The translations under genes and the position numbers were made by a program. Under the pieces are notes generated by a model. The model did not search any database. It was not told the origin of the DNA and saw nothing but the letters and a program-made list of their open reading frames with translations. Shown here piece by piece: positions 58,201 through 59,139 of a DNA stretch of 64,000 nucleotides; position 1 is the stretch's first letter; each line of letters starts with the position of its first letter. Source of the stretch: Hymenobacter piscis (GTDB lineage Bacteria; Bacteroidota; Bacteroidia; Cytophagales; Hymenobacteraceae); assembly GCF_018760735.1 (NCBI RefSeq), contig NZ_JAHHZN010000006.1, forward strand, positions 124,001 to 188,000, in the 5' to 3' direction.

Positions 58201-58772
58201 AACGCCTCCGGATAGGTCACGATGAGGGCTCCGGCGGTTTCCTTGGCGGTGGGTTTGCGGGTTGCCTCACCCCCTAGCCCCCTCTCCGGTAGAGAGGGGG
58301 GACTAGCTTTTAGATTTTTAGCGCTAGTAGCTAGTTCCCCCTCTCTACCGGAGAGGGGGCTAGGGGGTGAGGCACTCGTTCCCCGGTGGTTACTCAACCT
58401 ATTCAGCACCTCAGCCCGCATCAGCACGTTGGCGTTTTCCGTCTCGTCGAAGCTGTAGGGGCGCTTATAGGAGGTCGGGAACAGGAGCGGCTCCTCATCA
58501 GGCACTAGGTGCTGCAGGTCGGCCAGGAAGTAGGCAGCCTCGTCCCGGTCGTGGAGGATGAACAGGTGGTGCTGGTCGGGGTACTCCTGGTGCAGGGCGG
58601 CGGCCAGCACGGCATCCTGGGAGCCTACGAGGCCACGCAGGTGCAGGCGCACGGGCGCTTCGGGCGTGGCCGCGGGCCGCAGCGAGTGACGGGTGGCCGG
58701 GTTCAGGCGCGCGCCCAGCGTCATGCCGGTGGGGTCGAGGGCGTAGAGCTTCAGTAAATCAGAAACCTTCAA
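55203..58772 (-). CDS. mfd: transcription-repair coupling factor Mfd, with an in-frame palindromic repeat
   Basis: 1189 residues. Mfd moves RNA polymerase stalled at DNA damage and recruits UvrA. The N-terminal UvrB-like region (LFPTSYKRPYSFDETENANV) is followed by the RNA-polymerase-interaction region (VPGDYVVHQDYGIARFAGL), the RecG-like motor with Walker A CGDVGFGKTEVAIRA (about residue 650) and VIDEEQKFGV (about 750), GRVGRSNKKAYCYLL and the C-terminal domain. Residues about 131-172 (TSASPPSPLSGREGEL, PPSLPERGLGGEATRKP) are an extra Pro/Ser/Gly-rich insert encoded by a 110-bp palindromic repeat that keeps the frame. It sits between two UvrB-like segments, probably in a surface loop. A TACCTTTG promoter box lies 26 bases upstream of the start. 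Confidence 0.96.
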   Translation of the reverse strand: MKVSDLLKLYALDPTGMTLGARLNPATRHSLRPAATPEAPVRLHLRGLVGSQDAVLAAALHQEYPDQHHLFILHDRDEAAYFLADLQHLVPDEEPLLFPTSYKRPYSFDETENANVLMRAEVLNRLSNHRGTSASPPSPLSGREGELATSAKNLKASPPSLPERGLGGEATRKPTAKETAGALIVTYPEALFEKVINKKSLVANTFLVKVGDKLDVNFVSDMLAEYDFERSDFVYEAGQFAVRGGIVDIFSYANELPYRIELFGDEVETIRTFDPESQLSVEKRSQVSIIPNVQTKLLQETREAFLEFIPRNTAVWAKDVRQTLDVVDEYFDKAEAGFQELLAVAGGTQVVSKPADLFESAKTLRKLLEGFAVVEFGKRFHFKTGAEELQFSAKPQPSFGKDFNRIVKNLHDNQAKGYTNIIAAEQVRQADRLRTIFDELDNNVQFQHLLLGLREGFIDETLRLAVYTDHQLFERFYRAQETRKFSKKKALTLKELRTLVPGDYVVHQDYGIARFAGLTQVEINDRLQEAIRLVYRDDDVLTVSIHALHKIAKYSGAEGTPPTMSKLGSPEWENKKKSVKKKVKDIAAELIRLYAKRKTAPGHAFAHDSFMQAELESSFIYEDTPDQAKATEDVKRDMEVPHPMDRLVCGDVGFGKTEVAIRAAFKAVADGKQVAVLVPTTILAMQHYKTFRERLGNLPVTVEYVNRFKTTKQIKETLGRVADGKTDILIGTHRLTNKDVRFKDLGLLVIDEEQKFGVKTKDKLKEIKVNVDTLTLSATPIPRTLHFSLMGARDLSVIATPPPNRQPVQTELHVFDELLIRDTISRELKRGGQVFFVHNRVKDIEEQASMILRLVPDARVTYVHGQMDGDLLEKRMMKFVDGDYDVLVATTLIESGLDIANANTILINRAHMHGLSDLHQMRGRVGRSNKKAYCYLLTPPVAGLPSDARKRLSTLEEFSDLGAGFNVAMRDLDIRGAGNLLGGEQSGFINDLGFETYHQILDEAVQELKETEFRDLFLGDPTQRLQEAAGTGRPKECNIETDLQVLIPDRYVSSVSERLQLYSKLDRAKNAEELRKLLTGIVDRFGPLPAEVEQLADIVRLRWLACQTGFEKLTLKKNLLKGFIPALNNEPYFQGATFGNILSYVQTHPRSASMKERKEQLIISFEDVRSVQAAKRILSELVSEETVGV
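58264..58373. repeat. palindromic element inserted inside mfd
   Basis: Inverted arms of 45 nt (58264-58308 and 58329-58373) with one mismatch and a 20-nt AT-rich loop. Arm core: CCTCACCCCCTAGCCCCCTC, then TCCGGTAGAGAGGGGG. The whole element is translated without a stop as part of Mfd. Confidence 0.92.
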
Positions 58773-58805: not shown

Positions 58806-58846
58806 GAAGCCCGGCCGAAGTCAACTCCGGTCGGGCGTAACAGAAT

Positions 58847-59025
58847 CACAGATGGTGCAGCTGAAGCCGCAGATAGCGCAGATTCGTTCTGCCGAACGAG
58901 GAAAAGGATAAAGTTAGGCAGTAGAATGAGCAGTTGGCAGGACCAAGTAGCCTCACAAGCTATCTGCCGTCATCTGCATCCAGAACGAATCGGCGGCATC
59001 CGCGGCTTCATCCGCATCATCTGTG
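58847..59025. repeat. imperfect palindrome of the ATCTGCG type
   Basis: 45-nt inverted arms 58847-58891 and 58981-59025 with 7 mismatches by hand alignment (ends CACAGATG ... GATTCGTTCTG). It fills most of the 367-base gap between mfd and the next gene. No coding is seen in the gap. Confidence 0.75.
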
Positions 59026-59139
59026 CTTCAATACCACCGCTCCGGCCCGAAAGTTTCCGCGCTATTGTGGGGTATCGGTTGTACCTTCCCTATCCCCACC
59101 CGCGCTAGTCTTTGTTTTTCCCGGCCTTTCGCCTACCTC

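Follow-up and report, generated by a model that had tools for sequence, protein, structure and literature searches.

In-frame entry of a dispersed palindromic repeat into mfd of Hymenobacter piscis, with a DUF559 nuclease as the candidate enzyme of its family

What lies within the mfd gene of Hymenobacter piscis? The 64-kb stretch of DNA analyzed here (hereafter the window) contains a palindrome that falls entirely within the ORF for the transcription-repair coupling factor (window positions 58263-58374; Table 1). Its 45-nt arms differ by a single mismatch and can be extended to 51 nt with three mismatches, leaving the extended arms 10 nt apart. The palindrome contains no stop codon in the mfd frame, and this open in-frame reading suggests that the insert is translated together with the host protein. 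Its fold energy is -116 kcal/mol (z -12.2), with none of 200 shuffled sequences as low. Allowing up to three mismatches, a search with a 23-nt core gives two matches in the window and none in 100 shuffled sequences.

Table 1. Features of the mfd palindrome and its host gene (window coordinates)
Feature	Position	Strand	Basis or remark
mfd, transcription-repair coupling factor, TTG start, 1189 aa	55203..58772	-	host gene of the palindrome; TIGR00580, E 2.5e-293
Left arm, TGCCTCACCCCCTAGCCCCCTCTCC... type, with its own small hairpin (58278-58300)	58263..58313	+	inverted-repeat call and family
AT-rich spacer, 10 nt, between the arms	58314..58323	.	inverted-repeat call
Right arm, repeating the left in inverted orientation (51 nt, 3 mismatches), with a small hairpin (58337-58359)	58324..58374	-	
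Element-reading codons, Mfd residues 133-171 (SASPPSPLSGREGELATSAKNLKASPPSLPERGLGGEAT)	58260..58376	-	

An earlier note on this DNA had described a palindromic repeat with 45-nt arms inserted in frame into mfd, and the in-frame entry of a dispersed palindromic repeat into this gene is confirmed. The note placed the insert at about residues 131-172; the frame was right, and the extent is corrected to residues 133-171. The note also called mfd an essential-type gene, which is too strong, as mfd is dispensable in E. coli and B. subtilis. Chance and assembly artefact were both rejected as explanations because the element recurs genome-wide and because other species have different palindromes at the same mfd linker. 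A structured RNA was also rejected, since the only Rfam matches were to microRNA and scaRNA families, with scores below the gathering scores. A separate, imperfect inverted repeat, unlike the CCTCACC family to which the mfd palindrome belongs, lies just upstream of mfd (58843-58891 and 58981-59029), with 49-nt arms that are 84% complementary and 89 nt apart.

The mfd palindrome is one copy of a family found throughout the genus. A search of the H. piscis genome (labeled G000; other G numbers denote genomes of the genus), which the earlier note had proposed, gave 34 core matches with up to three mismatches, and none with the reversed pattern used as a control. The exact core pattern is present in 104 of 120 genus genomes, with one match to the reversed control across all of them. 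Based on 155 arm ends, an arm is ~45 nt long and has the structure R-CCTCACCCCC-NNN-CCCCCTCTCC-loop-GGAGAGGGGG, and base composition at these ends places the beginning of the conserved block at RCCTCACCCCC. Two such arms face each other to form an inverted doublet. There are subtypes: the mfd copy is of the CTAG type (CCCCCTAGCC), and others are of the CCGG type. The right arm of the CTAG type is open in one frame of three (ERGLGGEA), and this is the frame read by the Mfd and MetH copies. A target logo revealed no motif past the first base of the element, and no target-site duplication is apparent by eye at AddA, mfd or metH. The empty site in AddA of G001 includes a stretch that resembles the end of the element (GGTGGGGAGGCC), and the same is true of some other empty sites.

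How did the insert arise in Mfd? Among 30 Mfd loci of the genus, including that of G000, the linker that follows ...AEVLNRL varies greatly; the anchor could be located in 21 of them. The insert is missing from the four closest relatives of this Mfd (95-96% identical), a comparison that the earlier note had proposed, but what they have in its place is not a plain gap: they lack the palindrome and carry unrelated, acidic linker sequence of about the same length. Hence, the insert in G000 replaced or displaced older linker sequence and was not added to an otherwise unchanged protein. Three other genomes have short linkers at this site. The same linker holds a CCGG/CAA-type palindrome in G016 and G027, and a third type of palindrome in G031, in frame in each case, such that three different palindromes occupy the mfd linker across the genus. 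In another genome (G010:C1:2027992-2031461), Mfd was found in three pieces with an internal TGA, perhaps reflecting a broken gene or sequencing errors.

The suggestion that a dispersed repeat adds protein sequence, in Mfd a Pro/Ser/Gly-rich insert, also holds beyond mfd, since copies of the family lie in frame in five other G000 genes: metH, Pnkp, methylmalonyl-CoA mutase, MenD, and a CusA-type RND pump, the last with one arm only. For metH, the site is filled in G000 and empty in all five relatives in a DNA alignment. For Pnkp, the site is filled in G000 and two of the four relatives aligned, and empty in the other two. The one-arm insert in the RND pump gene is shared with one of six relatives, with the site empty in five of six. 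In methylmalonyl-CoA mutase, the insert is missing by coordinates from four of six relatives, where the flanking matches are at most 3 nt apart. MenD (L015) may be an insertion too, although it is a weak case, as its linker is variable in relatives and no empty site was found among them. Comparison of Pnkp from G013 (L185) and G000 (L024) shows conserved arms around different spacers, as if the spacer had been exchanged or the element inserted twice. Separately, an AT-rich type of repeat is seemingly read in frame in linkers (STNNQQPTTNNQ, TTDNQQLTTQ and SSNEQLAINSKQ) of MetH (L001), Pnkp (L024), PurQ (L011) and the RND pump (L026), and may be another dispersed repeat that adds to protein sequence.

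The family is linked to a nuclease gene. The sole DUF559 (PF04480) endonuclease gene in G000 lies after purQ, between two arms of the mfd palindrome family. This link, which was out of reach of the earlier note, alters the likeliest identity of the element. G013 has the DUF559 element at the same position, and seven relatives have a purQ-purC gap of 87-102 nt; in an eighth relative, G005, the region was matched through, with one stop codon. DUF559 is present in 103 of 120 genus genomes. Among the 30 best-scoring genus loci, one per genome, exact inverted repeats of at least 13 nt span the gene at 29; the exception (L067) has 11 nt of arm sequence, and L070 has 17 nt. The association also holds in reverse: inverted pairs of cores spaced 300-1200 bp apart enclose DUF559 in seven of seven cases, counted by hand from lists for 11 genomes, of which those for G016 (33 of 46 places), G060 (18 of 20) and G109 (20 of 58) were partial. 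The pairs in G008 and G103 enclose other palindromes in addition to DUF559. Both the short form, without the gene, and the long form that carries it occur in intergenic DNA and within genes.

The DUF559 element in G000 has arms of the CCGG type. CTAG-type arms surround DUF559 in L064, and also in G008 (28 nt) and G059 (26 nt), where other palindromes lie between the arms. Thus, the mfd subtype has a form with the nuclease gene in other genomes of the genus and not in G000. Since the CTAG arms of G000 enclose no DUF559, the mover of the mfd copy may have been lost or may act across subtypes. The loci in G008 (C87, L274) and G059 (C3, L276) are nested, with outer arms of the CTAG type and an inner, second type of palindrome (ACCCCTAGCCCCTCCTCA...) on both sides of DUF559.

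Is the association a peculiarity of the genus? From the best 80 of 560 loci in a wider scan, 75 had at least 200 nt on both sides and were used. An inverted repeat of at least 13 nt is present at 61 of these 75 named loci (49 of 53 in Hymenobacter and 12 of 22 in other taxa), compared with one of 460 control placements. Among plasmid-collection loci, 21 of which were chosen by hand from hits H1-H78, the repeat is present at 10 of 21 (5 of 210 for controls), and it is present at 12 of 12 DUF559 loci on viral contigs, six of which have cut flanks and several of which are alike. No exact inverted repeat of 13 nt was found at 14 of the 75 named loci, including 10 of the 22 outside Hymenobacter, or at 11 of the 21 plasmid-collection loci. 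DUF559 loci in Neisseria, E. coli and two from Azospirillum (L219 and L233) have no matched arm pair by the exact-repeat measure. In other phyla, matching palindromes flank DUF559 genes often, not always. The arm of a Novosphingobium DUF559 locus (L215) holds a CGTC stem-loop, CGTC-ATTTGC-loop-GCAAAT-GCCA. In Sphingomonas parapaucimobilis, DUF559 lies between transhydrogenase subunit genes and between sufB and sufC (L216 and L228), in operon-like surroundings.

Long forms of the element are also found within genes. Ten DUF559 loci in long open frames were retrieved, and at every one of them inverted arms span the gene, with an extra arm in between in the two RecQ cases (L238 and L242). Pfam places DUF559 between UvrD-helicase and UvrD_C in AddA-like proteins (L239 and L240), before PDDEXK_1 in AddB-like proteins (L241 and L243), at the N-terminus of RecQ (L238), and at the C-terminus of MetH (L236). 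One AddA linker is the most telling site. Among 12 AddA junctions, picked by gap size from 35 genomes plus G060 and G083, the linker is empty in six (G000, G001, G007, G008, G013 and G016), contains a short palindrome in frame in three (G002, G009 and G022, decayed in G022), and contains an arm-DUF559-arm unit in three (G060, G083 and G003). Five of the six AddA inserts are in frame. In G003 (L264), AddA with the DUF559 element is spread over two open frames (856 and 613 aa), and the insert is seemingly out of frame. Among the 150 DUF559 matches listed, 56 lie in open frames of at least 400 aa, some of which are perhaps open by chance. Pfam scans of seven DUF559-bearing ORFs (L011, L236, L238, L239, L240, L241 and L243; E up to 1e-5) found no splicing domain.

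What kind of protein is encoded between the arms? Pfam still lists DUF559 as a family of unknown function. An AlphaFold2 model of the protein (pLDDT 81, pTM 0.78) was matched by Foldseek to NGO0050 (3hrl; 4.9e-7), the homing endonuclease I-Bth0305I (3r3p; 1.9e-5) and, weakly, Vsr (0.02), and hmmsearch profiles agree for the first two (NGO0050, 5.5e-33; I-Bth0305I, 2.7e-6). A DUF559 gene has been grouped with EDxHD homing endonucleases in the available text of one study (PMC9403480). For the purQ-site copies, dN/dS is 0.00-0.10 among 11 sequences where computable, with synonymous sites saturated in many pairs, pairs with few synonymous differences omitted, and some of the 11 sequences probably representing one genome twice. 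These values show strong purifying selection on the purQ-site copies. Such constraint could reflect a function for the host, for example in Vsr-like repair.

Taken together, these data make it reasonably probable that the palindrome in mfd represents the short version, lacking the gene, of a selfish element organized like a REPtron, in which a DUF559 nuclease takes the place of the RAYT transposase. The full-length form, at its simplest about 0.5 kb long, would consist of an arm, the DUF559 gene and an inverted arm, and the short, REPIN-like form would consist of only two inverted arms and a spacer. As the most likely mechanism, we infer that the DUF559 protein, with its predicted I-Bth0305I/Vsr fold, recognizes the arms or similar sites and cuts DNA, that repair then copies the element in, and that short forms are moved in trans. 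Copies retained in genes lie in variable linkers, are open and mostly in frame, and so would be read with the host protein; a long form in a gene would place the nuclease domain in that protein. In-frame copies would need no special targeting, because out-of-frame insertions in needed genes would be lost by selection. Single-link clustering, which may group sites too coarsely, reduces the 84 DUF559 loci to 20 site clusters, after which a tree labeled by loop was uninformative. Many DUF559 loci are old, shared sites, so the long form has seldom moved in recent times. At unrelated sites, arm similarity and protein similarity are only weakly correlated (rho 0.12; 8 of 500 permutations as high).

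The causal order could be the opposite. Palindromes may spread by another route, such as a RAYT or template switching during replication, with DUF559 being a homing-type gene that secondarily invaded palindrome loops and for which the palindrome is the target. A nuclease of the homing type would be expected to lie within its target site, and most genomes have many more cores than DUF559 genes; AddA sites of both kinds exist, those with a short palindrome and those with DUF559, and at some DUF559 loci additional palindromes lie inside the outer pair of arms. G000 also has two Y1_Tnp genes, but neither CCTCACCCCC nor CCCCTCTCC occurs in the 3.2-3.3 kb around each of them, and one (L061) has a different palindrome; a RAYT as the partner of the mfd family was rejected on the basis that neither RAYT locus has these arms. 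Moreover, the left and right hairpin loops are identical within 30 of 68 elements, compared with 4.4 on average and 11 at most after shuffling, although many loci share a site and are not independent. Cores are also rarer in genomes that lack DUF559, being found in 9 of 17 such genomes versus 95 of 103 with DUF559 (p 2e-4, with kinship ignored); one genome without DUF559 has 53 cores. We consider this order of events unlikely, and we continue to favor a DUF559-driven element.

Two other possibilities carry less weight. DUF559 might be a Vsr-like repair nuclease that serves the host, around which ordinary intergenic REPs or terminators have gathered. The strong purifying selection at the purQ site fits with this, as does the Caulobacter DUF559 protein VsrA, for which a portion of the published account describes a DNA-damage response in vivo and a proposed role in mismatch repair (PMC12907096). 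However, widely spaced inverted arm pairs have DUF559 inside in every case counted, and the unit lies in frame within AddA-like and AddB-like genes and is joined to those for RecQ and MetH, positions that would not suit a terminator; this possibility is improbable in our assessment. Alternatively, the mfd palindrome could be an ordinary intragenic REP of the kind described from several species in 2013, with no further significance, and the DUF559 link could be peculiar to Hymenobacter. Intragenic REPs are indeed known, many of them in DNA-repair genes, according to sections of that survey (PMC3733652), and the association is weaker outside the genus. Nevertheless, the frequencies of arms at DUF559 loci in other taxa, in the hand-chosen plasmid set and on viral contigs stand against the low control values, making this the least probable of the four readings. 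The DUF559-driven element remains our preferred reading.

What would such an element mean? An in-frame palindrome in mfd is, on its own, of an already known kind; as far as we have found, the link to a DUF559-bearing element is new, and a search of the open-access literature found no paper linking DUF559 with palindromes. The 2013 survey, in the text available, left the enzyme behind REP palindromes without a RAYT as an open question (PMC3733652), and DUF559 provides a named candidate and a direct test. A bolder proposal, which may be correct but which we hold only tentatively and think somewhat doubtful, is that, across many phyla, REP families without a RAYT have DUF559 nucleases as their missing dedicated enzymes, and that these families may include CGTC REPs such as Rickettsia RPE-4/RPE-6 and Neisseria dRS3. 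Such elements would then represent a second, independently evolved kind of REPtron that colonizes genes as unspliced in-frame inserts and sometimes carries a nuclease domain inside host repair enzymes (AddA, AddB-like and RecQ). The DUF559-driven element favored here would in itself give DUF559 a function, provide a route for the repeated entry of palindromes into genes, and be a case of a nuclease domain carried in repair proteins without splicing.

How does the mfd-type element compare with known systems? The REPtron, as outlined in part of one account (PMC8266576), pairs a Y1 transposase (TnpA-REP/RAYT) with REP/REPIN palindromes that have GTAG ends. Like a REPtron, the mfd-type element has short palindromes, many-copy inverted doublets, and an enzyme gene flanked by the same palindromes; dispersed inverted doublets, the REPIN criterion, are present in G000 and the genus. 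Unlike a REPtron, its enzyme is a DUF559 nuclease of the EDxHD/Vsr fold rather than a Y1 HUH transposase, its ends are RCCTCACC rather than GTAG, and its long form is also found in frame within genes. By base composition at the 155 arm ends, the foot of the palindrome lacks GTAG. Thus, the mfd-type element works like a REPtron yet lacks two defining features of one, the Y1 transposase and GTAG. A conventional REPtron appears to coexist in G000, where a RAYT (Y1_Tnp) gene (L061; G000:C5:236279-236620) is flanked by a different palindrome, CCCAGGG...CCCTGGGCTAG.

We know of no nuclease-bearing form of Rickettsia RPE-1. The mfd-type palindromes resemble those of RPE-1 in lying in frame in unrelated genes, a likeness to Rickettsia elements that the earlier note had drawn and that is by description only, in the available text of the 2013 survey, and between hosts of different phyla (PMC3733652). 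The same text describes REPs within genes, many of them repair genes, and CGTC REPs without a dedicated transposase (PMC3733652). Like the CGTC REPs, which include Rickettsia RPE-4/RPE-6 and Neisseria dRS3, the mfd family has no RAYT of its own and has in-frame copies in repair genes. Compared by that text description, the terminal motif of CGTC REPs varies to TGTC and CCTC, and mfd-type ends are RCCTCACC; the CGTC stem is 8-9 bp long and starts with A-T, with a loop of 4-5 nt, whereas the CCCCCTCTCC/GGAGAGGGGG stem has no A-T start. CGTC REPs are reported there without a dedicated enzyme, whereas the mfd-type element has DUF559 as a candidate.

The nuclease itself resembles the EDxHD homing endonuclease I-Bth0305I (PDB 3r3p) in fold and in sequence. 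I-Bth0305I is a mobile intron protein according to its PDB entry, and has extra DNA-binding parts as described in a portion of one paper (PMC3943268), whereas DUF559 is here one small domain between palindromes. Finally, as with inteins, a nuclease domain is inserted in frame in conserved genes. Unlike inteins, the ORFs of the mfd-type element that were scanned have no splicing domain, and the insert presumably stays in the protein.
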